In this document: positions 2,873-36,847 of the stretch, in pieces
Position numbering within the stretch: position 1 is the stretch's first letter
Layout of the letters: every line of letters starts with the position of its first letter
IMG/VR virus record: IMGVR_UViG_3300047557_002769
Location: 62,001 to 126,000 of that record
Reading direction: 5' to 3' (one strand)
Length of the DNA: 64,000 nt
Origin: a virus
Position numbers and translations under genes: made by a program
Notes under the pieces: model-generated
Told to the model about the DNA's origin: nothing
What the model saw: the letters and a program-made list of their open reading frames with translations, nothing else
Databases searched by the model: none

Positions 2873-3079
2873 TCACTTCTTCTTTTTTACATTAACCGGT
2901 GATCCTTTTGAAGGTCTACCGGGTTTATTTTTAGGTTGTGTCTTGGTTGTTTTGGTAGCCCGAATCGCAGCAGGTTTTGCTGTGACAGGTTTCGGTGCTG
3001 GCTCTACAACCGGTTTAGTTACTTCTACCGGTTGTTCATTTTTATTTTTTCTGAAAAAATTTAATAGGGCCCGTAGCAT
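2873..3079 (-). CDS. Short Lys/Pro/Ala-rich basic protein
   Basis: 68 aa, low complexity, with proline-alanine repeats (VEPAPKPVTAKPA) and a C-terminal NKPGRPSKGSP resembling an AT-hook core (GRP flanked by basics). The start overlaps the preceding gene by 37 bp. May bind nucleic acid or be a virion linker; not recognised. Confidence 0.6.
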   Translation of the reverse strand: MLRALLNFFRKNKNEQPVEVTKPVVEPAPKPVTAKPAAIRATKTTKTQPKNKPGRPSKGSPVNVKKKK

Positions 3080-3605
3080 TCTTTTCCTCGCTTCGTCTCA
3101 GCAACTTTGGCTTTTTCTTTTTCACACCAATAGTTTCTGGGGTAAAGCCTGCTATACCGGGCGTTGCTACGGCATTATTAGCAGGAGCTTCCTCCATGAA
3201 AGTTTTAAATGATAATATATATTCTTGGTTTAGAAATTGTTGTACTAATGGTGTATCAACCGTATGTGAATTCTTTTCTAATTCACAAAGGTATTTATAC
3301 TCAAGATTTAATGGTTCGGTTTTATCGTCGTAGTGTTCTTTTATTAGCGCTAACGCTGCGGTGTATGTAAGTAGTTTTTTATTTTCTGACGGCACCTTTT
3401 CAATAATTTTCTTTAAACGAAAAACCATTCTATGAAGAATAGTATATGCACGTCGTTCTTTATCTGTGTTTAACTGGCTTAGTTTTTTTAATTCACGACC
3501 TTTAGCATCGATGATGCCAAGCTTAAACGCGTCTGTTTCTTCAAACGGAGTTACAAGCATCTTTAAAATTCTATAAGCTACAACTGAATCTAAAAATTTT
3601 GTCAT
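3042..3605 (-). CDS. Conserved T4-like phage protein of unknown function
   Basis: 187 aa, helical, charged. The segment LGIIDAKGRELKKLSQLNTD followed by an LHRMVFRLKKIIEK helix resembles a hypothetical protein found in T4-like cyanophages near virion genes (recollection only). Overlaps the upstream and downstream genes, so translationally coupled. No catalytic motif visible. A TATAAATA box on this strand at 3292-3299 lies inside the frame (KYKYL codons) and is probably fortuitous. Confidence 0.75.
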   Translation of the reverse strand: MTKFLDSVVAYRILKMLVTPFEETDAFKLGIIDAKGRELKKLSQLNTDKERRAYTILHRMVFRLKKIIEKVPSENKKLLTYTAALALIKEHYDDKTEPLNLEYKYLCELEKNSHTVDTPLVQQFLNQEYILSFKTFMEEAPANNAVATPGIAGFTPETIGVKKKKPKLLRRSEEKNATGPIKFFQKK

Positions 3606-6052: not shown

Positions 6053-6448
6053 TTATAGTTTCGAAACGGGGGTGTTTGACCAGAACTTACAGCTCCAATA
6101 ACGAGCTTTCCATTTAGGACCGGGATTATCGCAGTTGTGTCTTGCTCTAAAGCTTTTCTTTCTCTCTGGATTGTCACGTTTGATAGAAAGATTAGGATCG
6201 CCAAAATTTACTTTAACGACGTTACCCTTATCGTTCTTAACGTATACTGCTCTTTTTTTAGGGCCACCAGGTGTTAAAAAGGGCTTGTTAAGTTTACGAC
6301 CGCTAGAATCCTCTTCGTGGAGTTCACCCCAGTCTTCATAATCTTCCATGCCATCAGAAGCAAATGTTTCTTCTGTAATTCCAAAATCTTCGCTATGCTC
6401 TTCACAAAAAGCACAGCATTGTTCTCTTACCTGCTTAAATGTTTTCAT
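6053..6448 (-). CDS. Candidate internal head protein with capsid-targeting-like N-terminus
   Basis: 131 aa. Begins MKTFKQVRE, similar to the MKTYxEFIAE capsid-targeting peptide of T4 internal proteins. The body (residues ~50-130) is a compact basic domain with conserved-looking segments SGRKLNKPFLTPGGPKKRAV and FRARHNCDNPGPKWKARYW, seen in my recollection in many T4-like marine phage proteins of unknown function. The first residues overlap the end of the previous gene by 4 bp. Confidence 0.75.
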   Translation of the reverse strand: MKTFKQVREQCCAFCEEHSEDFGITEETFASDGMEDYEDWGELHEEDSSGRKLNKPFLTPGGPKKRAVYVKNDKGNVVKVNFGDPNLSIKRDNPERKKSFRARHNCDNPGPKWKARYWSCKFWSNTPVSKL

Positions 6449-7539
6449 CTTGAAGCCTTAAAAGTTTTTAGTTTAGGTGCCTTCGATGGCTTCATTTTTT
6501 TAGCAGCTTTAGCTCTGTAGCCAGCTAATCTTTTCTGTTCAATATCTCTCATCTTAGAAACCATACGAGTTGCAAGCGAGGTTTGAATATATTTCATTCT
6601 AGACACTTGCTGTTCAATTCTATCTTTTTCAGCAGCAGATAATGTTGACTTATCTCTACCTCTTAAAAAGCGTTTGTAGATAGCTCTACGTGCAGCTAGT
6701 GTGGCTCTCTTTTTAAGAACGTTAACGTTTGAAGGTCTGCGTAACTTTAGACTTCTTGCAACGTTACGCTTACCTCTCATGCGAGCAAACGCCTGACGTT
6801 TCTTAAGCCTAGACTGTACGCTTAGTTTTTCGTCAAGGACTTCTTCTTTGACTTCTTCCTTCTCATCGTTTTCATCTTCATCTTCGTCCTCCTCTACTAG
6901 CTCTACGTCATCATAAAGATCAACAATATCTTCCCAGGTCAGTTCATCAACCATTTTGTTGAGTTCTTCTTCAGAAAGCTCTTCTTCTACAGAGGTTTGC
7001 TCAGATAAGAATGCACTAAAGGTTAGAACAACACCTTCTTGTTGTCTTGCAGCCCAGATATTATCAACCATGTTAGGATAAGGTCTACCGGCTGCTTTAG
7101 CTCTTGCTTTTGCTTTAGCTTTGCTTGCAGATGATAATTTTTCTTTGGGAAGTTTGGCTCTTTCTTTTGCTTGGTCCCATACCGCTTCATTAGCTATATC
7201 ATAAGACTCTTCTACCTCACCAGTGTCTGATTTAGGTACATGTGCGTAGGGTAGATCAGCAATAGTAGCGTCTTTATGACCATGTAGTTTTAGCATAGTA
7301 TCAACATGAGTCTGCATGTACTTCTCATGTTGATCAAGCACACCTAGTGACTGTAATGCATCGTGAGCTCTAGCCATATGATAACTAAAGTCATGAATCA
7401 TAACATTAGTTGCCATGCCAGCAGCTAGTGCTTTTTTTTCAACATCTAAGTAGTTATCTGTGGCTTCTAGCGCAGTTTTAAGAAGCTCGTGCTGTAGGTA
7501 TCTATCTGTAATCATTTTAGAAACGACCTTAACATCCAA
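6445..7539 (-). CDS. Large charged head-associated protein with basic C-terminal domain
   Basis: 364 aa in three parts: helical N-terminus (1-~170); an internal LTFSAFLSEQ at ~174-183, resembling a T4 capsid-targeting/gp21-cleavage motif, followed by a very acidic stretch (VELVEEDEDEDENDEKEE); and a strongly basic C-terminus (LKKRQAFARMRGKRNVARSL) that likely binds DNA. Overlaps the Dps gene by 28 bp. An N-terminal domain appears fused in front of what in relatives may be a separate targeted protein (inference). Confidence 0.75.
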   Translation of the reverse strand: MDVKVVSKMITDRYLQHELLKTALEATDNYLDVEKKALAAGMATNVMIHDFSYHMARAHDALQSLGVLDQHEKYMQTHVDTMLKLHGHKDATIADLPYAHVPKSDTGEVEESYDIANEAVWDQAKERAKLPKEKLSSASKAKAKARAKAAGRPYPNMVDNIWAARQQEGVVLTFSAFLSEQTSVEEELSEEELNKMVDELTWEDIVDLYDDVELVEEDEDEDENDEKEEVKEEVLDEKLSVQSRLKKRQAFARMRGKRNVARSLKLRRPSNVNVLKKRATLAARRAIYKRFLRGRDKSTLSAAEKDRIEQQVSRMKYIQTSLATRMVSKMRDIEQKRLAGYRAKAAKKMKPSKAPKLKTFKASR

Positions 7540-7940
7540 CCGTGTTTTTCATGTGCTTGTATTCTATCTTGAAGGTAGTTAGATATTCCAACTTCACCTT
7601 CTTTTTCTGCTTCTTGATAAGCGATTAATAGTGAGGCTCTTAATTTAGTATTTTCTTTTTCTAAATTCGAAAGCATCGCAAGCGCACTTGGTATAGTATC
7701 TGTCTCTTCAATACTAGTTAGTTCTTTAAATCTGGCTAAAGTACCAGGCGCATAAGAATCTAAAGTTCTGATTAATTCAGCAATTGCATCAACCGAACTG
7801 TGTACGTCCTCATAAAGTTCACCCATAAATTCATGATACTGAGCGAAGTTAGGACCTTCAACGTTCCAGTGGTAGTACTGAGCCTTTAAGTAAAACGTAA
7901 AGGCATCTGCTAAAGTAGTCTTTAATGTATCAACTAGCAT
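7512..7940 (-). CDS. dps: Dps/ferritin-like protein
   Basis: 142 aa four-helix ferritin-like protein. Dps signature region FYLKAQYYHWNVEGPNFAQY then HEFMGELYEDVHSSVDAIAE contains the His/Asp/Glu pattern of the intersubunit ferroxidase site. Members oxidise Fe(II) with peroxide and protect or condense DNA. It is slightly short and lacks a basic N-terminal tail. Situated among candidate internal head proteins, so it may act on packaged DNA or in the infected cell; the first option is speculative. Confidence 0.88.
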   Translation of the reverse strand: MLVDTLKTTLADAFTFYLKAQYYHWNVEGPNFAQYHEFMGELYEDVHSSVDAIAELIRTLDSYAPGTLARFKELTSIEETDTIPSALAMLSNLEKENTKLRASLLIAYQEAEKEGEVGISNYLQDRIQAHEKHGWMLRSFLK

Positions 7941-7941
7941 G

Positions 7942-8988
7942 TTATAGCCCTAGGTATTGTTTAAACTGCATTTTACGTAGTGTTGGTGGCTTCATTGCCA
8001 CCCCAGCACGTACTTTAGAAAGTGTGTCTTGCGTAGTCTGCTGCACGGGCACATCTGTTTTAGGAGCGGCTTTTTCCCGATCCATAGCATCCTCATGACC
8101 TGCTGGCTCACCTAAGTAGCCACCGCTTCTAACGGTCTCAATCATCTTTTTAAACTCTTTGTATGCAGAAGGACACTGATCTAAATTTCTAGTTTGAATT
8201 CCATCAAACTCGAGTTGTAGATGTTCTTCGTTTAAGCGTCTAATTTCTGTAAAAGGCATAAAGAGAGCTGGGATTTTCTTCTCTTTAATATTGCTAGGTT
8301 TTTCCCCGGGTGTAATTTTTTTCATATGGTCGGTGCCTTTTTTCTCTCCCCATTGGTATTTGGATATTTTAAGATGTGGGTCATATATCTCTTTTATTCC
8401 CATGGAGCTTCTTACAGTATGATAAACTTTTTCTTTATGTTCGTCAGAGAGCTTAGAAAGAAGACCAGATTTAAATTTTTCTTTCTCACCAGCTAAGGCA
8501 TGGCTACGTAGCTTAGTGCCCGACATACCAGCTGCGCCTTCAGCATCAGGGTCTCGTTGACCAGCAGAAACTACTTTAATAGATTTAAAGTTGTATAGAG
8601 CCCCTTCATGTGTACCGTTATAGTGCTCTAGTTTTTTCTTATATTCATCTACTCTGTCTGAACCTGCAACCATTACTAAATGTTTATGGCCTTGTTCGTG
8701 TAGGTGCTTTGCGATATGGAGCATTGAGGGCATTTCTTTGCTTGAAGAGCCTACATGCGCCTCAGGGTAGGCATGTTTAATTAATTCGACTTTATGTTCA
8801 GCTGTCAAAGGATTTTTCTTTGCATCATGAGAGTGAGAGGTATAGATGTGTGCTGTTGCGCCATGCTGTTTAGCAACTGCGATAGTTTTGTCAAAAAGCT
8901 TTTCATGCCCTATTGTAGGTGGGTTATTACGACCGTAGGTAAAAACCGCGGTTTTTTCGTCTTTTTCTTGAAGGAAGGTTTTAAACAT
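7942..8988 (-). CDS. HIGH-type nucleotidyltransferase with capsid-targeting-like start
   Basis: 348 aa. Starts MFKTFLQEKDE, similar to T4 capsid-targeting peptides. Residues ~13-190 form a cytidylyltransferase-like Rossmann domain: TYGRNNPPTIGHEKLFDKTI (HIGH-type GH at the nucleotide site), MVAGSDRVDEYKKKLEHYNG and the late SGTKLRSHALAGEKE motif (equivalent of ISSTxIR). Family members transfer NMP to phospho-sugars or cofactors; substrate unknown. A perfect late promoter box precedes it. Confidence 0.82.
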   Translation of the reverse strand: MFKTFLQEKDEKTAVFTYGRNNPPTIGHEKLFDKTIAVAKQHGATAHIYTSHSHDAKKNPLTAEHKVELIKHAYPEAHVGSSSKEMPSMLHIAKHLHEQGHKHLVMVAGSDRVDEYKKKLEHYNGTHEGALYNFKSIKVVSAGQRDPDAEGAAGMSGTKLRSHALAGEKEKFKSGLLSKLSDEHKEKVYHTVRSSMGIKEIYDPHLKISKYQWGEKKGTDHMKKITPGEKPSNIKEKKIPALFMPFTEIRRLNEEHLQLEFDGIQTRNLDQCPSAYKEFKKMIETVRSGGYLGEPAGHEDAMDREKAAPKTDVPVQQTTQDTLSKVRAGVAMKPPTLRKMQFKQYLGL

Positions 8989-9011
8989 GTCGACAACTGT
9001 AAATTATTATT

Positions 9012-9019
9012 TATTTATA
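9012..9019 (-). promoter_or_regulatory. Late promoter box TATAAATA
   Basis: Perfect match to the T4 late promoter consensus on the minus strand, 24 bp before the 8988 start codon, in an AT-rich 42-bp intergenic gap. Implies expression of the nucleotidyltransferase and the downstream head block late in infection. Confidence 0.75.
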
Positions 9020-9030
9020 ACTTTTTATAA

Positions 9031-9657
9031 TTAGTATATCCAGAACCCTAACCTATCCCCGCTAGGGCAATCATACCAGATAGATCCTTCGGGTTGCTCA
9101 CTTTGTTCATCTCTCCATACCGGAATTGCATTTCTGTAAGAATGATGCGCAAAATCATCGTTATATCTAAGATGTATTTCTATTACTTTATCTCCGATAA
9201 GCTCAAAATTTACCCACTTATACTTGAGGTAGAATCCACCTAATGATTTAGGTATCGTAAAATCTTCATCTAGTCGCACCCATCGACTAAATCTATCTAA
9301 TCTTTCCGAGTCTCTAAAACCCTCTGCTGCAACAGTCTGAACACCTCTTAAATAGTCAACTGTAATATGTCTACCCTCTAACCACTCACACCAAAAATAT
9401 CCATCTGGTACTTGGTCTGTATCATTAGGTGTAAGCCATATCTTCCTTGCACCGCGCGACATCATTCTCAAATTTGTAATAGGTCTTATAATATACCAGT
9501 TATCTTTAGGCACTGGTATACCAGCAGGGGCAGCCTGTAATCCTTGTTTTTTCGCTACAATTAACTTATCGTAAATCCATAAATCATCAGTATTAACTTT
9601 ATGCCAAACGTCTTTATCGTCTATAAACATTACTTGCTGTGCATATTGATATACCAA
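9031..9657 (-). CDS. Possible ATP-grasp-like protein
   Basis: 208 aa. Features fitting an ATP-grasp fold by eye: N-terminal YDKLIVAKKQG, central WCEWLEGRHITVDYLRG, and C-terminal WVNFELIGDKVIEIHLRYND, which resembles the metal-binding Glu...His-x-Arg-x-Asn strand of that superfamily. Comparable proteins occur in T4-like marine phages (recollection). Substrate unknown. Overlaps the next small gene by 28 bp. Confidence 0.65.
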   Translation of the reverse strand: MVYQYAQQVMFIDDKDVWHKVNTDDLWIYDKLIVAKKQGLQAAPAGIPVPKDNWYIIRPITNLRMMSRGARKIWLTPNDTDQVPDGYFWCEWLEGRHITVDYLRGVQTVAAEGFRDSERLDRFSRWVRLDEDFTIPKSLGGFYLKYKWVNFELIGDKVIEIHLRYNDDFAHHSYRNAIPVWRDEQSEQPEGSIWYDCPSGDRLGFWIY

Positions 9658-9818
9658 TGTGCTAGTTGTTTTTTACGTGGAGATGCTGATTTGGAAGAGC
9701 GGATTTTCTTAAGCTGAGTTATTGTCTTACCCTTAAGACCATGTCTAGCCATGTCACCTTTGTCTTGAGGGTTACGGCCATCCATAAAGTTTTCTCTAAG
9801 TTCTTTAAACGTTTTCAT
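9630..9818 (-). CDS. Small basic protein with capsid-targeting-like N-terminus
   Basis: 62 aa when started at the internal ATG (9816-9818), which overlaps the upstream stop in the usual 4-bp ATGA manner; an upstream in-frame ATG at 9833 is less likely. Begins MKTFKELREN, close to the T4 internal-protein targeting peptide; the rest is very basic (ITQLKKIRSSKSASPRKKQL). A good candidate for a DNA-associated internal head protein. Confidence 0.7.
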   Translation of the reverse strand: MKTFKELRENFMDGRNPQDKGDMARHGLKGKTITQLKKIRSSKSASPRKKQLAHWYINMHSK

Positions 9819-11095
9819 TTTATTTCTATCCATCTTAGAGTAGCTTTGCAGTCCGAGTTGTTTGCAATTTTAGTACAAATAACAGCCAAAATCTGACTAT
9901 TATTACTAAAGTAATTTTGATAGATTGAATCCGATAAAGTAAACGAGCCTGTTAGCTGGTTTGCACCAGACCCTGCACCGGTAGCACCAGCGGCAAAGCC
10001 ATCCGCAATAGCAACATAGTTAACATTAGCTGCCCAGCCGGTCTGTAGAGAAGGGTTCTTTACATATTGGCATACACTGTAGCCGGGTACATTAGCCCAC
10101 GCAGGCGTTCCGTTAAAAATAGAACTAGCATTTGGTGCGATGACGATTCGGTAATTTACATCGTTAGTCGCTAATATAGCCCATTCCTTAATTCTTGCAA
10201 ACATTTGATTAGGTTTGCCAGTTATAGTATCTTTTAGTTTAATAGCTAGTAAGCATTGACCATCAGTAGTATTAGAAATAGTTGTTGTATTACCATCTGT
10301 ACTGATCGAGTGTGTAAAACCAACCTCAACATCTGAGCCTTCACAGTATACCGCCCCACAAATAACTTGTAGTGTGGATGCAGAAGCTGCAGTACCTGAA
10401 TTTTTAATCTCCCACCTTAGTGGAAGACTGGGTTGCATTATGTAAGGTTCAGTGGTATTGTTAGCATGTCTAAACTGATGTACGTAGTGAATAGCACCAT
10501 CAATAACGAAGCCGACTCGCACTCTACCTACCCCTAGCCATTGATAATCACAGGTAAAGATATGACATTTTGTAAAGTCAGCTGTAATACCGCTTGGATT
10601 GTATTCATTCATAGAACCATCCAAACGATCTAAATTCCAACTTGTTCGTGGTACTACCTCATTGTCAACCCCTTTTTTTCTTATTACCATTTCCGGGGTC
10701 AAACCATTCATCCTGAAGTATATACCATTCCTATCATCAAACAAACCAACGGCTTGTATTACATTAGCTTTATGTGTACCCATTCTAAAAGTCATGATAG
10801 CTTTATTAGAGGTACCTGAGATATAAGGATGATATTGTTTAGTTTGATATACTACTCTATCACCGGATGCAGTTGTAACTGTTGCAAGGAATTGGCAGTT
10901 AGAAGTATCTGAAGTCAGGACCCCAGTACCTTCCAGATGATCATTCATAACCGACTGTGTTTCATTGTCGTACTGAAATCTATACTCACCTAAGACTCGT
11001 GCGCTAGTAGAACGCAAACCACCAAAAGCATCGATATTTGGACTATCGTCGTATCTAATTTTATCGTCAAACAAATAGGTCATACTATTCTCCAT
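9815..11095 (-). CDS. Beta-rich virion protein (fibre or tail-associated)
   Basis: 426 aa, rich in beta-propensity residues (FLATVTTASGDRVVYQTKQY; ISTDGNTTTISNTTDGQ) and aromatic-rich, without catalytic motif or signal peptide. Composition fits a trimeric fibre or jelly-roll virion protein. A second ATG four codons in (TYLFDDKIRYDD) could be the true start, since the first lies inside the upstream gene by 16 bp. Confidence 0.7.
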   Translation of the reverse strand: MENSMTYLFDDKIRYDDSPNIDAFGGLRSTSARVLGEYRFQYDNETQSVMNDHLEGTGVLTSDTSNCQFLATVTTASGDRVVYQTKQYHPYISGTSNKAIMTFRMGTHKANVIQAVGLFDDRNGIYFRMNGLTPEMVIRKKGVDNEVVPRTSWNLDRLDGSMNEYNPSGITADFTKCHIFTCDYQWLGVGRVRVGFVIDGAIHYVHQFRHANNTTEPYIMQPSLPLRWEIKNSGTAASASTLQVICGAVYCEGSDVEVGFTHSISTDGNTTTISNTTDGQCLLAIKLKDTITGKPNQMFARIKEWAILATNDVNYRIVIAPNASSIFNGTPAWANVPGYSVCQYVKNPSLQTGWAANVNYVAIADGFAAGATGAGSGANQLTGSFTLSDSIYQNYFSNNSQILAVICTKIANNSDCKATLRWIEIK

Positions 11096-11862
11096 CCGTC
11101 CCTGTATATTAGGGTAACTGAGCCGTTGTTAATTCTTATTTCAAAACCATTGGGATCGTTGTCCACTACACCAATAACTTTTATAGGTGTGAGTTGAGCA
11201 TGCCCCGATTCGTCTTTTATGATGACTTCTCTACCATTTACTATAGTTGAAGGATCAGGCAGTGTAATATAACACTTAACATCGCAGTTTACCCCTACGT
11301 AATAGTCCCTTCTTGTTATCGTATAATCACCTGTAACCAACTTGGTAGGCATGTCCAAGTTAATTACATCACCTGCACCGCCACCTGGACCGGTAAGAGA
11401 AATCTTACTTACCCAATCCTCTAAGAATTTAATTTTTTTTCTAATGTCGTTTAATGTACGACCGGGAAGATCAACATCGGGTTGTTGATATGTTTTTTCT
11501 TCTAGCTTAACTTCTTTAGTAATATGCTCGGCGGCGAGATCGGCGAGGGTTTTGGGCTCGGGGCCGGTGGGTGTTTTTTCGGCTTGTGCTTGAACCAACT
11601 CATCACTTTCCTCCTTCAACACGGTTAACACTTCATCGAGTGTAGGTGGCTTAGGGTAGGTAATATTGATCTTTTCCACAAACTGCTCAGCTACCACTGC
11701 CGCTTCTGCGAGATCTTTAATGGTGTTTGATCTGACTGATTCAACAATTTCTTTTTGAATCTGCTCGTATCGCTCCACCTCTTCTACCAAAGCAGGATCA
11801 ATCTCAGTGCCCATTGCACGAGACCACTTTACCAAAAGCTGCTTTTCTTTAATACTTTTCAT
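11080..11862 (-). CDS. Virion protein with helical stalk and C-terminal beta domain
   Basis: 260 aa. Residues 1-~150 are helical and charged; TLNDIRKKIKFLEDWVSKI is coiled-coil-like; residues ~165-260, after a GPGGGAGD linker, form a beta domain (GDYTITRRDYYVGVNCDVKCY, INNGSVTLIYRDGWRIV) of the type seen in phage spike or fibre-tip proteins. Preceded by a 48-bp leader that recurs at 46677-46724. Confidence 0.7.
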   Translation of the reverse strand: MKSIKEKQLLVKWSRAMGTEIDPALVEEVERYEQIQKEIVESVRSNTIKDLAEAAVVAEQFVEKINITYPKPPTLDEVLTVLKEESDELVQAQAEKTPTGPEPKTLADLAAEHITKEVKLEEKTYQQPDVDLPGRTLNDIRKKIKFLEDWVSKISLTGPGGGAGDVINLDMPTKLVTGDYTITRRDYYVGVNCDVKCYITLPDPSTIVNGREVIIKDESGHAQLTPIKVIGVVDNDPNGFEIRINNGSVTLIYRDGWRIV

Positions 11863-11907
11863 TGATCTTCTATTGCCTAGCCTGTAAAATCCATATGTGG
11901 GCCGGTG
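11860..11907 (-). repeat. 48-bp leader repeat, copy 1
   Basis: Contains CCACATATGGATTTTA and GGCAATA(G/T)AAGATC and ends at the ATG of the 11862 gene. About 81% identical by eye to 46677-46724. It fills the gap between this gene and the ligase-like gene. Confidence 0.7.
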
Positions 11908-11912
11908 AGAAA

Positions 11913-13106
11913 TTAACGCGGTCTAGCTAAAAAATTAGCTCTACTAAATTCTTGTCTATCTACTAACTTAGTAGGTCTGTTATTACGTACAACGACGTAG
12001 CCTTCTGGCTTTACTTTAGTTCCGTTGATCGTATGTTCAAATTTAGGCTTAGATGAAAGAGCGTGAACAAGTTGATCTTTAGCAGCCTGTAAGTGATGAT
12101 GCATTTTGAGAATCGCATCTATGTGCTTGCTGTTCTTCTGTACATGATCTAAATCGTCGTTCATTTTTTCAGTTCTAGTCGCGACAGCTTTAGCTGTTTT
12201 GACTTTAGCGATACCTTGCAGATGTTTATCTTTTAAGTGTTCATGATAACCTTCAGTGGACGGGATAGTACCATCTCTCACGGTCTTATTAATATACGTC
12301 TTTAGATGCTCGCCATGTCTATCCAATACCCTGTAAGCTTTTTTATCGGTATTTTTAAATAATTCTGTAGCTTGATTAAGGTGTTGTTGATATGTATGAT
12401 GTTGATCTTTCGTCATCTCTGCATGCTGAGCATCATCTGAAACGTTAATCATATGAACGTCCGGGTGCTGCTTGAAATGAGAAATGTCAGCGCCGTATTC
12501 AGCTTTTAATCCTTGAAATGTATTACCAGTATACGCTGTATGAACAGCTACTCCAAATTTGGACTTAGCTAGTTTTTTACCTTCGGGTGAATTATGAGGT
12601 GTGGAATAAGTTATGGTGTTAGGTTTAAAGTGGTACTTCTTACCATCATCCATTATATCACCGTGAGGATTTTCTTCACTTTTTATACCACCTGAATGCA
12701 TGATATCACCTTGATATACACCTGTCTTAGGCGCAACCTTAGGTAAGTGCTCTAATGCAGCCTTTAACTTAGATACAAGTCCTGGTGCATGGCCGTGGTT
12801 TTGTTCTATATCTTCAAACGTATAATTTAATTTTGGATTCACGTTAAACGCAGACTTAGATGCAACAAAAAACTGGCCATTATCGGGGTTATGACCAAAA
12901 ACAATAGAAGGAGATCCATCGTACTTGGTCGTAATTTTTGTATTATTCTTTTTACCTTGTATCTGATCCTTGACGTCTTCCAGGTTGTGAAAAGCATGAG
13001 CGAACCCTTCCATACCTGCGTTGATGACGTGGTCTTCGGCATGCTCTAAATGCGTCAGCTTTTCTTCGGAAGCTGCTTCAGTAATAAAAGCTTTTAAATT
13101 ATACAT
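11913..13106 (-). CDS. KxDG ligase-like nucleotidyltransferase, capsid-targeting-like start
   Basis: 397 aa. Shows the covalent nucleotidyltransferase (DNA/RNA ligase, capping enzyme) motif series: motif I KYDGSPSIVFG (~residue 62), a motif III-like GVYQGDIMHSG (~152), motif IV EGYVVVR and motif V-like TKLVDR (~373-386). Middle residues are His/Lys-rich helices. The N-terminus MYNLKAFITEAA resembles a T4 capsid-targeting peptide ending in Ile-x-Glu. Possibly a ligase packaged in the head; substrate unproven. Shares 1 bp with a nuclease-like gene. Confidence 0.75.
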   Translation of the reverse strand: MYNLKAFITEAASEEKLTHLEHAEDHVINAGMEGFAHAFHNLEDVKDQIQGKKNNTKITTKYDGSPSIVFGHNPDNGQFFVASKSAFNVNPKLNYTFEDIEQNHGHAPGLVSKLKAALEHLPKVAPKTGVYQGDIMHSGGIKSEENPHGDIMDDGKKYHFKPNTITYSTPHNSPEGKKLAKSKFGVAVHTAYTGNTFQGLKAEYGADISHFKQHPDVHMINVSDDAQHAEMTKDQHHTYQQHLNQATELFKNTDKKAYRVLDRHGEHLKTYINKTVRDGTIPSTEGYHEHLKDKHLQGIAKVKTAKAVATRTEKMNDDLDHVQKNSKHIDAILKMHHHLQAAKDQLVHALSSKPKFEHTINGTKVKPEGYVVVRNNRPTKLVDRQEFSRANFLARPR

Positions 13107-13825
13107 TACTTAAATGGATTCTTTTTTGTGGTACCGGGTTTAACAGAAAAAGTACTGTAAGGCATCTGCTTAATTTTTATTTCAGCCTGCACTTCATAAA
13201 ATTCTGATCGAGTACCTATTCTTACTTTAAAATCACCTACACCTTTAAGTAAAGGTACTGATGCACCTAGCTTAAAGGGATCTGCATTACCAATTCTATA
13301 AAAATCATCACCAGCTTGCATGTAGTTAGCAGGCTCGGTTTTACCTTTAGTATAATGATCGGTAACTACCTTACCTAAATCAACATTCTCTTTATTTGCA
13401 ATATATCTGTTTACACCTGGTTGATCAAAAAACATCTTCATAATTTTGAGAGGCACAGCACCAGGCTCTTTTAGCCCTGACTTGGTGGTTGGAATTTTAA
13501 GCTCATTAAGAGGTATACCTGTAAATTTTGATAGCTTAATAAGAAATTCTTTTGTCTGCGAGGATGAATTAAGCACATCTACTGCATGTTTAGCAGCAGG
13601 TGTGTCATATGTTGTCTGCCATTTACCGTCAGAGTAAAACATTCTCGGATTAGAAAGATTATCCGTGTGATTCATTTTAACTTCGACCCAGGAGTCCACA
13701 CCCTTATAACTCACTTTTACATCAGGATAATCCGTACCTACTCTAGGTCTTTCCGCGGTTACACCTGGTAGTTTATTGATGTAATCAGCGACATCTTTTT
13801 CGTACTTATCTGACGCAGCAGACAT
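13106..13825 (-). CDS. Possible PD-(D/E)XK nuclease-like protein
   Basis: 239 aa. Near the N-terminus, YEKDVADYINKLPGV helix, then DYPDVKVSY and SWVEVKMNHTD give the helix, Asp, x(n), Glu-x-Lys order of the PD-(D/E)XK fold (D~31, E49, K51). The remainder is unassigned. Coupled to the ligase-like gene (stop/start shared at 13106), suggesting a joint role in nucleic acid cutting and joining. Assignment by motif only. Confidence 0.6.
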   Translation of the reverse strand: MSAASDKYEKDVADYINKLPGVTAERPRVGTDYPDVKVSYKGVDSWVEVKMNHTDNLSNPRMFYSDGKWQTTYDTPAAKHAVDVLNSSSQTKEFLIKLSKFTGIPLNELKIPTTKSGLKEPGAVPLKIMKMFFDQPGVNRYIANKENVDLGKVVTDHYTKGKTEPANYMQAGDDFYRIGNADPFKLGASVPLLKGVGDFKVRIGTRSEFYEVQAEIKIKQMPYSTFSVKPGTTKKNPFK

Positions 13826-26321: not shown

Positions 26322-26330
26322 AATGTATGG

Positions 26331-26403
26331 TAGGCCCGACGTGATTCGAACACGTGACTGGTGAATTATGAGTTCACTGTTATAACCGCTTAACTACAGG
26401 CCC
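26331..26403 (-). tRNA. tRNA, anticodon CAT (Met or Ile2)
   Basis: Cloverleaf with acceptor GGGCCTG, anticodon loop CTCATAA, T-loop TTCGAAT and encoded CCA (26328-26330). Not the initiator type because position 1 can pair with 72 (G-U). Elongator Met or lysidine-modified Ile(CAU) cannot be told apart here. Isolated from the main cluster. Confidence 0.88.
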
Positions 26404-26421
26404 TTAACTTGCAATGAAATC

Positions 26422-26682
26422 TTAAATCTTTTTTAGTGCGTCTTTACGCATTAAAAAGGAACGAGCGTTATCGAACTTATGTACCCGAACGTACTCTACA
26501 CCATCGATAAACTCAGATGCGTGATAATTTTCACACAGCCATTCCTCTTGATTAAGCGGATTAACTAGTTTTACAGTCTTAGGTTTTGACTTACCGAATG
26601 TACGATTCCAGTTGTTATCGAACTCGTTCCTCGAAACACCAAAAGGGCGAGGAGAAGAGCCTTTACCTGCTTCTCTGTTCAT
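26422..26682 (-). CDS. Conserved phage protein of unknown function
   Basis: 86 aa. The N-terminus MNREAGKGSSPRPFGVSRNE followed by FDNNWNRTFGK is a pattern I associate with a widespread small T4-like phage protein of unknown role. C-terminus beta-rich. 4-bp overlap with the LSm-like gene. Confidence 0.75.
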   Translation of the reverse strand: MNREAGKGSSPRPFGVSRNEFDNNWNRTFGKSKPKTVKLVNPLNQEEWLCENYHASEFIDGVEYVRVHKFDNARSFLMRKDALKKI

Positions 26683-26960
26683 GATAGTACAATCCCATTT
26701 CCAAAAATATTATTATACTGATTATAAAGTTCTTTAACAGGCTTTGCAGTCCAAATTACGCTTTTCTTAGGGATTGTAAGGATGTAATCCTCAACATATA
26801 CGGCGTAGGGAGCAAGAGCCAACATGGGCTGCTCAGGATTGGATCTAGACGGTACAAACTGAATATAAGCAGGGCGCTTAAGCTTGTAAGTATCCTCGTC
26901 CTCACTCTCAATTTGAGCTACTACTTCTTCCCCGGTAACAATTTTCAATACTAGAACCAT
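26679..26960 (-). CDS. LSm/Hfq-like small protein, paralogue A
   Basis: 93 aa from the ATG at 26958-26960 (GTG at 26972 is an alternative). VLKIVTGEEVVAQIESED then RPAYIQFV matches a bent beta-sheet Sm-like protein; 35144-35440 is a clear paralogue (TGEEVV core, similar LYNQYNNIFGN tail versus EYYDKTFGN). RNA binding is possible but only inferred. Confidence 0.65.
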   Translation of the reverse strand: MVLVLKIVTGEEVVAQIESEDEDTYKLKRPAYIQFVPSRSNPEQPMLALAPYAVYVEDYILTIPKKSVIWTAKPVKELYNQYNNIFGNGIVLS

Positions 26961-27028
26961 TTTTAACGACACTTTCTAAAAAATTATGTGCTTCATCTTC
27001 ATCATCAAAGACTCTCACTATCGTACAC

Positions 27029-27057
27029 ATTATATACTCATTGTGAAAAATAATCAA
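27029..27057 (-). promoter_or_regulatory. Sigma70-type promoter
   Basis: Minus strand TTGATT (27052-27057), 17-nt spacer, TATAAT (27029-27034), upstream of the LSm-like gene 26679-26960. Confidence 0.75.
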
Positions 27058-27163
27058 TATCTGTTCGTCAAAGACACTAGCCTTTACGATCCAATTGTTA
27101 ATATTTACAGCAGAAAGAGTAGTGAGATAAGGTACCATATGAATAGCCGTTTAAGGCTATTTA

Positions 27164-27259
27164 TTAGTACATGTTTTTCAGTTGTCTTTTACGTTTCGCT
27201 TCGTAGATCTCTTGAGCCCATTCTACAAAGAATTTATAGGCTGATTTTAGATATTTCAT
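27164..27259 (-). CDS. 31-aa basic peptide
   Basis: ATG at 27257-27259 preceded by AAGGA; TAA at 27164-27166. Sequence KYLKSAYKFFVEWAQEIYEA then a KRKRQLK tail: an amphipathic helix with a basic end. Lies between the hsp20 terminator and the LSm-like unit. Role unknown. Confidence 0.6.
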   Translation of the reverse strand: MKYLKSAYKFFVEWAQEIYEAKRKRQLKNMY

Positions 27260-27277
27260 ACTATCCTTAAAATAAGT

Positions 27278-27297
27278 AAGGCCGGCGAACCGGCCTT
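27278..27297 (-). terminator. Hairpin terminator after hsp20
   Basis: AAGGCCGG-loop-CCGGCCTT, an 8-bp stem with a UUCG-type loop on the minus strand, directly after the hsp20 stop; followed by ACTTATTTT rather than a long T-run. Confidence 0.7.
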
Positions 27298-27301
27298 TGT
27301 T

Positions 27302-27817
27302 TTACAGGTCTCGACCCTGTGGGTCTTCAGTAAGAAGTTCAGGTTTACCTTTTTTAGTTTTGGTTTCAGATGGATCTTTAACCTCTACTTTTTTAGGCTT
27401 CTTATGCTCAGGGATAATACGCTCAAGGAACACCTTCAGCATACCGTTCAATAGCTCAGCGTCTTTTACTTCAATGTAATCGTCTAGCGCGAAAGTACGC
27501 GTAAATGCTCGAGCAGCAATACCCTTGAACAGGAAGTTTTCCTCTGCTTCTTGGGAATGGACGTTACCCTTAACAATCATCTTACCATCTGCGAGCTCGA
27601 TTTCGATATCTTGCTTAGCAAAACCAGCAACAGCGATTTCGATAACGTATGTGTTATCGCCTGTTTTCTTAATATTGTAGGGAGGATAGTTGGGAATATT
27701 CTTGGTAAGATCATCATGGATCTTAGCAAGTTTGTTGAACTGATCGTCAAAGCCGACATAAAGTTTGTCAAAGTCCTTGAACACATCACGACCAAATACG
27801 TCTTTAATAAACGTCAT
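27302..27817 (-). CDS. hsp20: Small heat-shock protein Hsp20/IbpA
   Basis: 171 aa. Alpha-crystallin domain from ~residue 45 (YPPYNIKKTGDNTYVIEIAV; AGFAKQDIEIELADGKMIVK) to the GMLKVFLERIIPE strand; C-terminal Lys/Pro tail. ATP-independent chaperone that holds aggregating proteins, common in T4-like cyanophages. Has an AAGGAG site, a ~140-nt structured leader and a late promoter box. Confidence 0.93.
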   Translation of the reverse strand: MTFIKDVFGRDVFKDFDKLYVGFDDQFNKLAKIHDDLTKNIPNYPPYNIKKTGDNTYVIEIAVAGFAKQDIEIELADGKMIVKGNVHSQEAEENFLFKGIAARAFTRTFALDDYIEVKDAELLNGMLKVFLERIIPEHKKPKKVEVKDPSETKTKKGKPELLTEDPQGRDL

Positions 27818-27961
27818 AAGTTTCTCCTTATTAAGCGAGTTAAAAAAAGTTACCCTAAAAGGCGCAACGGAGCCGCTTACGATTACGGCGTCAGTCTAAC
27901 GTCCTGACCGAACTAGCTTCGGACTAGCAGTACGTCCCATCCCGCGGGAGTATTACATAAT
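27818..27961 (-). promoter_or_regulatory. Structured 5' leader of hsp20
   Basis: No gene in this strand. The transcript expected from the late box would contain successive hairpins: CCCGCGGG, CCGAA-GCTAG-TTCGG, GTCAG-N9-CTGAC, GCCG-N10-CGGC, then an A/U-rich stretch and AAGGAG. It is more GC-rich than its surroundings. No family recognised. Confidence 0.5.
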
Positions 27962-27969
27962 TATTTATA
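27962..27969 (-). promoter_or_regulatory. Late promoter box TATAAATA
   Basis: Perfect octamer immediately downstream of the regA stop codon and ~145 bp upstream of hsp20, so hsp20 can be expressed late, independently of regA. Confidence 0.75.
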
Positions 27970-28395
27970 TTATTTCTCAACTTTTTTCTTACCAATATTG
28001 TACTTAGCTTGTAAATCCCACTCGTTTTTTTCTCTATACGAAATAATCTTTATTTGTGAAAGCGGTGCCCGGTCTTCCGCAGCATCCTTGTTCACAATTT
28101 TAATTAATCCCCAATCAGAAAGTAAGGCAGCAATAGTATTTCTTCTTTGTAGATCATTATCTGTAATATCAGCTTGCTTACCGTCTAAGGCGAATAGTTC
28201 TTTAAAATGGACGATAAAATACTTACCTTGTTTATGGAGGATATGGCAAGACTGATATAAGATCTTTTCTTTCTTAGACGCTACACCAATACGCGTAAGC
28301 GTTTCTTTGACTTTAAGGAAATCATCCGGTTGCGATAGTACAACTTCTAGAGGTAAATAACCGGGAAAATCAATATTGAAAAACTCATGTGACAT
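27970..28395 (-). CDS. regA: RegA translational repressor
   Basis: 141 aa. Close to T4 RegA over its length by recall: FLKVKETLTRIGVASKKEKI, LYQSCHILHKQGKYFIVHFK, RRNTIAALLSDWGLIKIV and the C-terminal KNEWDLQAKYNIG. Binds ribosome-binding sites of early mRNAs to repress translation. N-terminus is ~10 residues longer than T4. Position next to gp62 is the classical T4 order. Confidence 0.95.
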   Translation of the reverse strand: MSHEFFNIDFPGYLPLEVVLSQPDDFLKVKETLTRIGVASKKEKILYQSCHILHKQGKYFIVHFKELFALDGKQADITDNDLQRRNTIAALLSDWGLIKIVNKDAAEDRAPLSQIKIISYREKNEWDLQAKYNIGKKKVEK

Positions 28396-28838
28396 TATTC
28401 TCCACCTTTATCTAACTTTCTTTTTATTGTTTGTAATTGTTCGTCGGTGAGGATGGAGATCGCCTGTCTAGCTTTTTCAGTATTATAGCCATAGTACAGT
28501 TTTACCAACTCCATCGCTTCAATTTTTTCAGCCTTAATCCACTTATTAAATCGCTTTTTCGGCCGAATAATATTTATAAGAAATTGGTACTGTAACTTTT
28601 TATCGAGATGTGCTCTAGAGTTCATCTCATTTGCTGCAATAACTGTATCTGCTCCATAAGAGAGCCCTTTGTTAACGATATAAGGAGCATACTGCTTTTC
28701 GGACCAATCATCAACAATTAAATCTTCTTTTGTGTGATTAATCGAGTTAATAAAATCAAACGGGCTAATAGACGGTGCTTTATACACCTCATCCAGCTTC
28801 ACATCAACCGGTTGCCCGAAAACATCATTTATATTCAT
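28395..28838 (-). CDS. 62: Clamp-loader small subunit gp62
   Basis: 147 aa. Position between regA and gp44 and the motifs SPFDFINSINHTKEDLIVDD and FLINIIRPKKRFNKWIKAEK (T4 gp62 has GKRYGKWAKL) support gp62. Forms the gp44/62 complex that loads the gp45 clamp. Shares 1 bp with regA. A TATAAATA box at 28571-28578 falls inside the frame. Confidence 0.85.
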   Translation of the reverse strand: MNINDVFGQPVDVKLDEVYKAPSISPFDFINSINHTKEDLIVDDWSEKQYAPYIVNKGLSYGADTVIAANEMNSRAHLDKKLQYQFLINIIRPKKRFNKWIKAEKIEAMELVKLYYGYNTEKARQAISILTDEQLQTIKRKLDKGGE

Positions 28839-29122
28839 ACAATCATTCTCAATAGACCAAACGTATCAATAGTTACCAGAAGTAGATAATTGGCCAACAT
28901 ACCAAAGCTACGACGACTGTAAGCAGCCCAAGCATAAAGGCTGCAGCCAATAATCCAAGCTGGATAAAGAATAAGAAGAGGAGGATCAGGTACGGTAAAA
29001 GCCATGGCGAGAGAGCAACCAATACTAATAGCCCAAGCAACCACTTCGATAGTGAACCTAACACGATGGCTTTCCCAGTCTTCCTTAATCCATTTGAATA
29101 TGTCACAAAAAATATCTATCAC
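28835..29122 (-). CDS. Integral membrane protein
   Basis: 95 aa with three to four hydrophobic helices (VVAWAISIGCSLAMAFTV; LLILYPAWIIGCSLYAWAA; MLANYLLLVTIDTFGLL). Resembles small membrane proteins located near clamp-loader genes in T4-like phages. 4-bp overlaps on both sides. Function unknown. Confidence 0.72.
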   Translation of the reverse strand: MIDIFCDIFKWIKEDWESHRVRFTIEVVAWAISIGCSLAMAFTVPDPPLLILYPAWIIGCSLYAWAAYSRRSFGMLANYLLLVTIDTFGLLRMIV

Positions 29123-29307
29123 AATACCCAGTCTTCCGCGTAATCTTCTGCTTGCCCCAGATTATTAAAAGGCATAGTTTTTTCTGATCCAAAATAGCTA
29201 TCCATAACTACTACTTCGTATAGCGATAGACTTTCGTCGTCGTTTTTATATACTAGAGCAGTTCTCATTTCGTTGTCGGAATAATATGTGCTAATTAGAG
29301 TCTTCAT
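29119..29307 (-). CDS. Small hypothetical protein
   Basis: 62 aa, acidic, beta-rich (TYYSDNEMRTALVYKNDDES) with a C-terminal acidic helix (LGQAEDYAEDWVL). Overlaps gp44 and the membrane protein gene by 4 bp each. No motif recognised. Confidence 0.7.
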   Translation of the reverse strand: MKTLISTYYSDNEMRTALVYKNDDESLSLYEVVVMDSYFGSEKTMPFNNLGQAEDYAEDWVL

Positions 29308-30248
29308 TTTATCTCCACCGATGCCATAATTTCAGTCAGGCATGCAACTAGGTTTATTTCTTGATCAGACACGAATGCAGACTTATACTGATAATCAGCA
29401 ATCGTTAAGACCAACTGAGGTACCTGATTAGTAATAGGTACGAATGTATCATAGATTTTCCGGAACAGTGTAGCAGGGTCATTATCTAGGTTATTAACAA
29501 CCCAAGCACGCATCTTCTTCCAGTCTTTTTCCTTTACCGCTGTTACCAGCTCATTCATATTCGCTTCACCGATATTGGTAAGGATACCTTCATCGATTGA
29601 GCCAGACTGAGCGTACCGCTGCAGTTCGTTCAGAGTGCGTCGAAAATCTGGAAAATGCTTTTCAACTACCTTTGCAAGTACCTTACTATCAAAGGTAAGG
29701 TCTTCTTTTGCAAGAATATCGACAACACGTTTATAGAACTGTGCAGCCAGTTTCGGCTTTTCAGCTTTAGGAATTTTAAAATCAATAACAGCACATCTCG
29801 AATGCAGAGGCTGAATAATTCGATTCTTAAAGTTGCAAGTAAAAATAAAGCGGCAGTTATTTGCAAACTCTTCAATGAATCCACGAAGAGCTGGCTGTGT
29901 AGAATTAGGGTTCAGATAGTCAGCCTCGTCAAGAATAACAACCTTAGTGTTACCTGTAAACGAGACTGTAGATGCAAAAGATTTAATCTTAGTGCGAAGA
30001 ACGTCAATACCAGACTCTTCAGAGCCGTTAATAACGATATAGTCTGAATTTAATTCTTCACACAAAGCACGGGCAACGGTGGTCTTACCCGTTCCTGCAC
30101 TCCCTGAGAAGAGCATATTTTGAATATCGCCTGATTTAATAACACCAGCGAAATACTCTTTAAGATCCTTTGGTAGGATACAATCATCAATCTTTCTCGG
30201 ACGATATTTCTCCGTCCAAATAAAATGCATAGCGGTATCATCAATCAT
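29304..30248 (-). CDS. 44: Clamp-loader large subunit gp44 (AAA+)
   Basis: 314 aa from the ATG at 30246-30248. FIWTEKYRPRKIDDCILP is the T4 gp44/RFC start motif; Walker A MLFSGSAGTGKTTVARALCE, Walker B KVVILDEADYLN, sensor 1 FIFTCNF and the HSRC arginine-finger motif follow in order. ATP-driven loading of gp45 with gp62. An 8-bp overlap couples it to the GIY-YIG gene. Confidence 0.95.
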   Translation of the reverse strand: MIDDTAMHFIWTEKYRPRKIDDCILPKDLKEYFAGVIKSGDIQNMLFSGSAGTGKTTVARALCEELNSDYIVINGSEESGIDVLRTKIKSFASTVSFTGNTKVVILDEADYLNPNSTQPALRGFIEEFANNCRFIFTCNFKNRIIQPLHSRCAVIDFKIPKAEKPKLAAQFYKRVVDILAKEDLTFDSKVLAKVVEKHFPDFRRTLNELQRYAQSGSIDEGILTNIGEANMNELVTAVKEKDWKKMRAWVVNNLDNDPATLFRKIYDTFVPITNQVPQLVLTIADYQYKSAFVSDQEINLVACLTEIMASVEIK

Positions 30249-30786
30249 TAATTTCACTCCAAGTAATACCTTTTTTCTTTAAAGAAAAATAGGATTTAAC
30301 ATTATAAAAATTAAACATCTCAGCAAAGCCTCTAAAGACGTTACCATTTGAACATCTAAGAGTTTTTTTCTTAGCTTCGCTGATTTTAGGGGTTTTACCA
30401 TATTTTTTACCCCAGTTTGGACTCAGCAACCCTCTCTTTCCATAATTAGGATTGCCTTCCCCGATGTAGCTTCTTCGTGCCTTCATACCTTTTTTATAGT
30501 TAGGGCTGTCAGCTGTTCTACCCCCGTCGCCACCGCTTGTCATATTATACTTAGGCTTAAGCTCTTCAATCCAGTACTTTTCCCGTTCTTCGTTGAGAGT
30601 GTTATCGCAATCGTCTATAGTCTCAATAGTAAAATTTTCTATTCCGTATTTACGCATGGATCTGTAAAGATATGTCTCTACCCCAACCCTCGCGTTGCGT
30701 TTATGAAAGTACCACCGTTTTGTAACATTCGACGAGTAGCCAATATAGAAGTCTTGTGTTATTAAATTAACTATTTTATAAATCAT
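30241..30786 (-). CDS. Free-standing GIY-YIG homing endonuclease
   Basis: 181 aa from the ATG at 30784-30786 with GGAG 6 nt upstream. GIY-YIG core: MIYKIVNLITQDFYIGYSSN, catalytic Arg in VTKRWYFHKRNA, and acidic residue in LNEEREKYWIEELKPKYN. Followed by NUMOD3-type motifs (GEGNPNYGKRG, SPNWGKKYGKTPK, ISEAKKKT) that contact DNA. It separates the clamp and clamp-loader genes, which are adjacent in T4. Confidence 0.9.
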   Translation of the reverse strand: MIYKIVNLITQDFYIGYSSNVTKRWYFHKRNARVGVETYLYRSMRKYGIENFTIETIDDCDNTLNEEREKYWIEELKPKYNMTSGGDGGRTADSPNYKKGMKARRSYIGEGNPNYGKRGLLSPNWGKKYGKTPKISEAKKKTLRCSNGNVFRGFAEMFNFYNVKSYFSLKKKGITWSEIND

Positions 30787-30842
30787 TTTCTGCTCCGGGC
30801 TATATACTTCAATATATAGGCAACCGGAACATTTAACGTCAA

Positions 30843-31514
30843 TTAAACTACAGAACCGGGCTCGCAAGCAATCCAATATTGTAGTTGTTTCGACTCATGC
30901 TTAAAGTGTAGGAACTTAGCTTTGCCGTTTGGTGTCTTAGCTACTGTTACCTCATATGCGTCAGGAATTACCTTAAGGTTCTCAACAGCAATATAAACAT
31001 CAAAGTCATCAAACGCCGTACCTAGTGGCTTTCTAAAGTTACTTGCTGTATCGTTCTTACGATCACAAACAGACAAAGTCACGTTTTGATTTTTATTAGT
31101 AACTGAGATAGTCGGCACACCGGTAATTGCAGCTGCTTTCATAATCATCTGAACGTCTTCTGCCATAAGCTTAAACTTATAGACTCCTACGTGTTCAATC
31201 TCACCAGACGGTGCACCTGTAACAATCTCTGGATTAGAGTAAAAGTATTCAAACTTACCCTTATCGCTAGATACCGTCAGGCTCTTATCACCAAAAGTAA
31301 TATCTTGATTCTCCATCAAAGTAAGCATCGCAAGCAACGAGTTAAGATCATACACTGCGAACTCGTTAGGAATACTTTCTTTGATAGTAGCCTTTGCAAA
31401 GATATTCTTTGCATTAGAGATAGTACTAACTGTATCACCGGGCTTGAAGATAATGTTCGTATTAATCGAAGCAAAGTTCTTCAAGATAGCTAAAGTTTCA
31501 TTACTGAACTTCAT
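30843..31514 (-). CDS. 45: Sliding clamp gp45
   Basis: 223 aa from the ATG at 31512-31514, preceded by AGGAAA. Begins KFSNETLAILKNFASINTNI, matching the T4 gp45 N-terminus pattern; two similar beta-alpha-beta domains follow (EFAVYDLNSLLAMLTLMENQ; YKFKLMAEDVQMIMKAAAIT). Processivity factor for gp43 and, in T4, activator of late transcription. Overlaps the upstream gene by 14 bp. Confidence 0.92.
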   Translation of the reverse strand: MKFSNETLAILKNFASINTNIIFKPGDTVSTISNAKNIFAKATIKESIPNEFAVYDLNSLLAMLTLMENQDITFGDKSLTVSSDKGKFEYFYSNPEIVTGAPSGEIEHVGVYKFKLMAEDVQMIMKAAAITGVPTISVTNKNQNVTLSVCDRKNDTASNFRKPLGTAFDDFDVYIAVENLKVIPDAYEVTVAKTPNGKAKFLHFKHESKQLQYWIACEPGSVV

Positions 31515-32244
31515 AATTTTCCTCATAATGTGAAATATCAAAATCTCCTAGATACGCAAGTCTACAGTTTCTATTTCTGTAGAAGTGCTTATTGAAGGAG
31601 TACTCAATAGGTTTATTATCCCAGTTCTTCAGATCGTCACCCCATAACACAACGGTCTCTTTCTTAAGTAAATCAGCAATAACAGAAATACCTGTAAAAG
31701 TAGAGAAGATAGGTTTAGACGATGCTTTAATAAGAGCAGCATTATCTACCATTGATTGATTATAGTCTAAAAACATGCATCTGTCAAGCGGGAACTTACC
31801 TGAATTTTGCAGGACGTTAAACTGTCTGCGTTGATCCATTTCTGGGTGACTCATGCGATCACCGACTATAAATTTATTAATTGGTTCAATAACTGGGGTA
31901 TTTAATTCAAAAGAATCATCGACCATAAAGTCGATGTTATATCTTCGTCTAAAGTCTTCTTCAAGTCTTACTGTTTCCCAGGGTCTTATTGTATGCTTAT
32001 CAAACGACTCAACTAAAGAAAGAATATTGTAGGTTGAATCGATGGTGACGTCTGATTCGTATTTTACCGAACAAACACATTCCTGCATCAACAACAGCTC
32101 TCTAAAGCCGTTAAAGATTTTCATCTTGTCTCTTACTACAAGACTAATAGCATGCCCGGTAGATTTAAAAATGCCCGATAAGACGGGCATTACATTTAAA
32201 GTATCACCTACATTACCCGACATGGGCATGAATATTCTAATCAT
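31501..32244 (-). CDS. GT-B/GT9-like (heptosyltransferase-like) protein
   Basis: 247 aa. N-terminus IRIFMPMSGNVGDTLNVMPV SGIFKSTG and a C-terminal STFTGISVIADLLKKETVVLWG segment fit the GT9 (ADP-heptose heptosyltransferase) GT-B layout, though it is shorter than bacterial enzymes (~330 aa). Transfer of heptose from the ADP-heptose made by 21.6-22.7 kb genes is an attractive inference. Confidence 0.55.
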   Translation of the reverse strand: MIRIFMPMSGNVGDTLNVMPVLSGIFKSTGHAISLVVRDKMKIFNGFRELLLMQECVCSVKYESDVTIDSTYNILSLVESFDKHTIRPWETVRLEEDFRRRYNIDFMVDDSFELNTPVIEPINKFIVGDRMSHPEMDQRRQFNVLQNSGKFPLDRCMFLDYNQSMVDNAALIKASSKPIFSTFTGISVIADLLKKETVVLWGDDLKNWDNKPIEYSFNKHFYRNRNCRLAYLGDFDISHYEENYEVQ

Positions 32245-35440: not shown

Positions 35441-35484
35441 TTTTCAGCCCTTTCATAATGAGTCAGATAAGTAATGATATTGTT

Positions 35485-35492
35485 TATTTATA
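35485..35492 (-). promoter_or_regulatory. Late promoter box TATAAATA
   Basis: Perfect octamer on the minus strand, 45 bp before the 35440 start, in the divergent gap with the plus-strand heptosyltransferase-like gene. Confidence 0.75.
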
Positions 35493-35500
35493 TATCTCTT

Positions 35501-36187: not shown

Positions 36188-36190
36188 TGG

Positions 36191-36272: not shown

Positions 36273-36280
36273 TTAGTTGG

Positions 36281-36351: not shown

Positions 36352-36356
36352 AAATT

Positions 36357-36830: not shown

Positions 36831-36847
36831 GGCACTACTATTTATGG

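Follow-up and report, generated by a model that had tools for sequence, protein, structure and literature searches.

A T4-type capsid-targeting sequence that probably loads enzymes into the heads of a T4-like phage and its aquatic relatives

The T4 internal proteins IPI, IPII and IPIII as well as Alt reportedly carry capsid-targeting sequences (CTS), which are said to have been described by Mullaney & Black in 1996. In the T4 reference genome (NC_000866), ipII and ipIII both begin with MKTYQEFIAEA. For IPIII, targeting depends mainly on residues 4 and 7 and processing on residues 8 and 10, and T4 CTS fusions are packaged and delivered (PMC9026906). In this study, we analysed a window of 64,000 nucleotides (positions 62001-126000 of the virus record IMGVR_UViG_3300047557_002769, 163,234 bases in total), in which a minus-strand gene block at about 3-14 kb encodes a DUF6267 protein and a HIGH-type nucleotidyltransferase with N-termini resembling these signals. 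We propose, with a probability of roughly 0.83, that this phage loads enzymes into its head by a T4-type CTS, followed by gp21 cleavage and delivery together with the DNA.

The signal shares with IPI, IPII, IPIII and Alt a length of ten N-terminal residues, aromatic or hydrophobic residues at positions 4 and 7, Ile or Leu at position 8, Glu at position 10 and often Ala at position 11, together with a gp21-type protease and the use of one tag on unrelated cargo. In contrast to T4, the cargo is an enzyme pair, the cargo list of the relatives is large and partly enzymatic, and position 4, Tyr in T4, is mostly Phe in the relatives and Leu in this phage. A homologous enzyme from the same conserved block is the virion cytidylyltransferase or NMNAT of cyanophages (T4-GC190; S-SM1, S-CREM2, S-SCSM1, S-SZBM1); unlike in those cases, it is DUF6267 and not the nucleotidyltransferase that bears the stronger tag in this phage. 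In the open-access literature searched, we found no paper linking these virion enzymes to a CTS. In SPN3US and phiKZ, a gp21-related protease likewise cleaves head proteins, ejected ones included, on the C-terminal side of Glu, but these giant phages differ in the A-x-E motif (SPN3US), the long propeptides and the cargo (PMC5694885). The DUF6267 protein is a direct member of PHROG 455 and Pfam DUF6267, some members of which are fused to the nucleotidyltransferase; both families are annotated as of unknown function, and an N-terminal targeting signal is not described for them in the sources searched. The mechanism is the one already known from T4; its use as a general enzyme-loading tag in a large group of aquatic phages is not described in the same literature.

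By its gene content the source virus is a T4-like phage, since it encodes gp23 (E 5e-146) and the portal protein (E 6e-184), both elsewhere in the record beyond the window, as well as a gp21/S77 prohead protease. The latter, which an earlier sequence-only reading of this DNA had proposed to look for elsewhere in the genome, was found (Table 1), and (L/I)-x-E sites are also present in the phage's own gp21 (LTE↓A; the arrow marks the putative cut), in gp22 and in the gp23 propeptide. A corresponding block is present in genomes of Kyanoviridae, with DUF6267, cytidylyltransferase and head-protein genes lying between gp43/uvsX/gp41 and gp61/nrdA. The T4-type late promoter element TATAAATA precedes the nucleotidyltransferase gene and is additionally observed 26-41 bp upstream of gp22, gp23 and two adjacent genes of the head/tail region, with the total of such octamers in the window being at chance level, without excess.

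For the DUF6267 protein, the Pfam match (PF19782) reached E 3.5e-101 and 339.7 bits against a cut-off of 27, and its initial description as a KxDG ligase-like protein holds, the motif reading TKYDGSPS. K61-x-D63-G64 (motif I, KxDG) and E368-G369-x-V371 (motif IV, EGxV) are invariant over 27 sequences and resemble the motifs of covalent nucleotidyltransferases such as ligases and capping enzymes, but a sequence-profile search of the PDB returned no ligase up to E 10. Its N-terminus MYNLKAFITE↓A agrees with T4 at positions 7, 8, 10 and 11 and carries Leu at position 4, so that L4 and F7 are followed by the processing-site form I8-T-E10↓A. Near relatives (73-83% identity) keep this motif, with residues between the key positions varying freely (MITFQTFIAEA, MITLTSFINES, MLKLSGFLLES, MYSLKHLLTEA, MITLKHFLIEA). 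A canonical CTS was observed in 59 of 79 DUF6267 loci, which were fetched by catalytic-region patterns independent of the N-terminus; any ATG, GTG or TTG near the N-terminus was allowed in this count, and some of the sequences are closely related. Across 51 CTS peptides (44 from the 79-locus set, the window's own and 6 from other relatives), entropies at positions 4, 7, 8 and 10 amount to 0.52, 1.17, 0.58 and 0.00 bits, values that are low partly by construction because the peptides were preselected as CTS matches, with Phe or Leu (mostly Phe) at position 4 and Phe, Tyr, Leu or His at position 7. Positions 2, 3, 5, 6, 9 and 11, in comparison, show 2.1-3.1 bits, which does not arise by construction, and the peptides are therefore not mere close copies of each other. 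Overall, the CTS reading is well supported for DUF6267.

The nucleotidyltransferase, too, retained its original HIGH-type assignment, with CTP_transf_like scoring 23.2 bits (cut-off 21) and with the motifs PPTIGH (HxGH/HIGH) and MSGTKLR (SxTxxR-like). P23, P24, G27, H28, S156 and R161 are invariant across 27 sequences, PDB sequence profiles gave a weak match to 3gmi (E 8e-4), and no relatives were found among plasmids. In its N-terminus, MFKTFLQE↓K, the T4-type core is located two residues closer to the start and is partly eroded, and we consider the CTS reading likely here. Six loci (L223, L232, L233, L238, L246 and L249) encode DUF6267 and the HIGH-type nucleotidyltransferase together in one open reading frame (ORF), 593-750 codons long, which has only one CTS, at its N-terminus, and PHROG 455 covers both domains. 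The two enzymes are therefore functionally linked, and the fusions suggest that one CTS could serve both. As to the role of the pair, we favour, by inference only, a chemistry of nucleotides/nicotinamide adenine dinucleotide or of nucleic-acid ends at the onset of infection.

Portability of the tag was assessed by searching IMG/VR with a degenerate DNA pattern for MK.F..F[ILM].EA, where an ORF start was counted if the ORF encoded 60 residues or more and an in-frame stop lay at most 30 codons upstream. Among the matches listed, 118 of 124 are located at ORF starts, and the tagged proteins form 35 clusters once the first 14 residues are removed, the largest of which (58) contains mostly nucleotidyltransferases. 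Pfam assignments in a subset of the tagged cargo comprise CTP_transf_like, DUF6267, DUF5661, zeta-toxin/AAA_33-type kinases, GNAT, DPBB, DUF192 and M78. A permuted decoy, made of identical letters with the second Phe shifted to another place, matched 51 stretches across the entire collection; of 50 readable matches, 11 were located at ORF starts, some of them also fitting the true motif. One locus carries two adjacent unrelated CTS-tagged genes, one of them weakly similar to RNA 2'-phosphotransferase and the other a GNAT acetyltransferase (L040:3736-4532). An ADP-ribosyltransferase-like, T4 Alt-like cargo at L040:3736-4149 was not retained, being a hint only, with RNA 2'-phosphotransferase matches at E 0.1.

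Virion data are available for several cyanophages. Published mass spectrometry lists the cytidylyltransferase (T4-GC190) among the virion proteins of S-SM1 (PMC3037559) and S-SZBM1 (PMC9146016), and NMNAT in those of S-SCSM1 (PMC9602691) and, as cited in the latter paper, S-CBWM1. We find the N-terminus MKKFSAFLNEA for the S-SM1 enzyme and MRFRQFIIEA for that of S-SZBM1. The nucleotidyltransferase of Syn9 likewise bears a canonical CTS, and in DLP6 the DUF6267 protein does (MMKFTQFLAE). The DUF6267 neighbour in S-SZBM1 (gp135), MAKNTHLEHLED, has no CTS and is not on the virion list of PMC9146016; the same holds for the S-CREM2 homologue gp87, which lacks a CTS and is missing from the list in PMC10665884, whereas the CTS-bearing cytidylyltransferases of both phages are listed. 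Mass spectrometry of S-CREM2 virions detected an S-adenosylmethionine (SAM) lyase, gp13, a kinase, gp136, the cytidylyltransferase and a Cas9-annotated protein (PMC10665884), without mention of a CTS in these virion proteins. The first five begin with MKDFDSFLEE, MKDLHSFLTE, VKRFDAFLTE, MQTFSMFFSE and MKNFSSFLTE, respectively. With named structural proteins excluded, the canonical N-terminus occurs in 5 of 26 detected versus 2 of 167 undetected S-CREM2 proteins (Fisher p 0.0005, with four pattern variants tried on this set), and the loosest pattern gives p 0.01 on the same basis. A CTS is lacking in many of the detected hypothetical proteins, which could belong to the tail or to the outer parts of the particle. 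The Cas9-annotated protein, gp12 (L014:7704-10313, 869 residues), carries LRFASFMAEA at residues 16-25 and matches no Pfam family at E 0.01, which casts doubt on its annotation as Cas9 as well as on its start codon. The SAM lyase, gp6 (L014:3837-5081), belongs to Pfam PF23780 and could possibly be a head-loaded counter-restriction enzyme.

In the mechanism we propose, the first ten residues of DUF6267 would, during late expression, bind the prohead core via the aromatic or hydrophobic positions 4 and 7, and the shortened CTS copy on the nucleotidyltransferase would bind it likewise. The gp21 protease would cut after Glu10 of (I/L)-x-E, releasing the mature enzymes in the capsid before DNA packaging, and upon infection both would be delivered to the host along with the DNA and work as a pair during the first minutes. 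What the data show is the motif with its selective conservation and its portability among unrelated proteins, the gp21, gp23 and portal genes and, from published work, orthologues in virions; that this phage packages, cleaves and ejects the enzymes, and what the two do together, is inferred. Several observations weigh against this proposal. The virion data come from other phages. In its genome the canonical form ([FYLI]..[FYHL][LIM].E, at most 3 residues from Met1) is found at 2 of 241 ORF starts with 0.62 expected; these two are DUF6267 and the nucleotidyltransferase, but this excess is weak and we rejected the window alone as proof of the motif. Near relatives carry eroded versions of the nucleotidyltransferase N-terminus (MKTFLES, MHTFKEA, MEKTARHSLK), and in Syn1 both enzymes lack a CTS, for which reason a rule that one of the two always bears it was dropped. 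In S-CREM2, several motif definitions were tested, p rises to 0.15 with the loosest of them when all proteins are counted, and two undetected proteins also match the motif; the authors of that study moreover state that mass spectrometry lists can include contaminants (PMC10665884).

Of the alternatives, the one that comes closest to even odds, while still falling somewhat short of them, is a CTS that works on DUF6267 only, the nucleotidyltransferase, short-variant and internal sites being chance or decayed remnants and the nucleotidyltransferase, if packaged, riding along with DUF6267. It would account for the background frequency of the short form, for the eroded N-termini in near relatives and for fusions with a single CTS. 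However, the nucleotidyltransferase of this phage keeps F..FLxE, and the internal site of the protein at 6445-7539 is conserved despite changed spacers. It should be noted that this is a narrower form of the proposal above, and the two probabilities overlap.

It appears unlikely that the tagged proteins are packaged but remain core or head components which aid assembly or DNA condensation, as has in part been proposed for T4 IPIII, and are not delivered effectors. T4 IPIII does affect head assembly, and internal proteins co-purified with gp22 (PMC9026906); some candidates are small and basic, and DUF6267 weakly matches a PHROG named internal head protein (E 0.006). On the other hand, DUF6267 and the nucleotidyltransferase keep enzyme signature residues, and cargo elsewhere contains GNAT, lytic-transglycosylase-like and kinase domains, which would be needless for structure. 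A purely intracellular late role, with virion presence in relatives due to carry-over and the motif docking another partner, was raised in its carry-over part by the S-CREM2 authors (PMC10665884) and is in line with the few cytidylyltransferase peptides (2-3) detected. Since the same enzyme was found in independent phages and laboratories, many other late proteins went undetected in virions and the motif fits the T4 CTS mutational map position by position, we regard this explanation as very improbable.

Returning to CTS-directed loading, we conclude that a T4-type CTS system fills the heads of Kyanoviridae-like phages with enzymes, and the tagged enzymes of this phage and many aquatic relatives are probably carried in the particle and delivered with the DNA. 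With somewhat less confidence, we expect that the ten-residue code fills these heads with a large, fast-changing enzyme set across the Kyanoviridae-like phages, and that the delivered repertoire (nucleotidyltransferase, DUF6267, SAM lyase, kinase, acetyltransferase, Cas9-annotated protein) can be read from sequence. Cyanophage virion papers repeatedly list an NMNAT-like enzyme, one of them adding SAM hydrolase, kinase and other unexplained proteins, and leave cargo versus contaminant undecided; the CTS match provides a mechanism and a sequence test for this question. It further allows candidate proteins delivered by T4-like phages before their own gene expression to be listed, and points to enzymes that may counter host defences, such as the S-CREM2 SAM lyase, or help to take over the host.

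Table 1. Features of the putative enzyme-loading system. Positions refer to the window unless noted; arrows mark putative cuts.
Feature	Position	Strand	Basis or remark
gp21 prohead protease	G000:152853-153299, outside window		Peptidase_S77, E 2e-40
DUF6267 protein, KxDG nucleotidyltransferase/ligase-like, predicted capsid cargo	11913..13106	-	Pfam DUF6267 and KxDG/EGxV residues
CTS of DUF6267, MYNLKAFITE, predicted gp21 cut before Ala11	13077..13106	-	Conserved mainly at positions 4, 7, 8, 10
HIGH-type (NMNAT/cytidylyltransferase-like) nucleotidyltransferase, predicted capsid cargo	7942..8988	-	Pfam CTP_transf_like; PHROG 3041, 395
Shifted CTS core of nucleotidyltransferase, MFKTFLQE	8965..8988	-	F2..F5-L6-x-E8
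T4-type late promoter element TATAAATA	9012..9019	-	31 bp upstream of nucleotidyltransferase
Small protein, short CTS-like N-terminus MKTFKQVRE↓Q, candidate cargo	6053..6448	-	
Basic protein of 62 residues (net +11), short CTS-like MKTFKELRE↓N, candidate cargo	9630..9818	-	
Basic protein with internal CTS-like site, possible precursor	6445..7539	-	TTG start doubtful
Internal site LTFSAFLSE↓Q in 6445-7539	7000..7026	-	Full core; VVSFANFITE↓E in L140, L141, L147
Block protein with internal SFKTFMEE↓A at 3189-3209	3042..3605	-	Absent from the list of the sequence-only reading

All five CTS-like sequences named by the sequence-only reading are present where it placed them (13106, 8988, 9818, 6448 and, internally, 7026-7000). 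Its comparison with the T4 CTS stood for DUF6267 and is likely to hold for the nucleotidyltransferase, with MKTFKQVRE and MKTFKELRE as the weaker cases. These display a form one residue shorter than the T4 CTS (F4..V/L7.E9). Four of the 241 ORF starts have the short pattern F..L.E, with 3.07 expected; the two are therefore not above chance by pattern, and the opposite assumption was rejected. MKTFKELRE moreover starts at the second ATG of its ORF, the first being located at 9833. Near relatives keep MKTFKEIRE and MRNFQTLQE / MNQFKTLRE, which carries little weight because the proteins are 73-90% identical overall. A status of the short-variant basic proteins as capsid cargo is unproven. The body domain of 6053-6448 is fused to a nucleotidyltransferase in Melnitz-2, the nucleotidyltransferase N-terminus being MKKFSEIIEA, and the C-terminal part of 6445-7539 is fused to one in DLP6; both proteins are therefore tied to the nucleotidyltransferase/DUF6267 set. 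Phage proteins that otherwise differ (L140, L150-L160) share a short module, KARAKAAGRPYPNMVDNIWAAR, which in the window (region 7030-7130 of 6445-7539) immediately precedes the internal CTS-like site.

The window enzymes match no defence family in a PADLOC scan. Between the nucleotidyltransferase and 6445-7539 lies a ferritin/Dps-like protein (7512-7940, minus strand; PF00210, E 1e-23), which has no CTS and is kept in near relatives. Directly upstream of the DUF6267 gene and touching it, a conserved gene (13106-13825, minus strand) has no family match; its residues DYPDVKV...WVEVKM suggest a PD-(D/E)xK nuclease. Elsewhere in the window, 28 tRNA genes are encoded on the minus strand at 26328-41503, 27 of which are packed into 36.2-41.5 kb.

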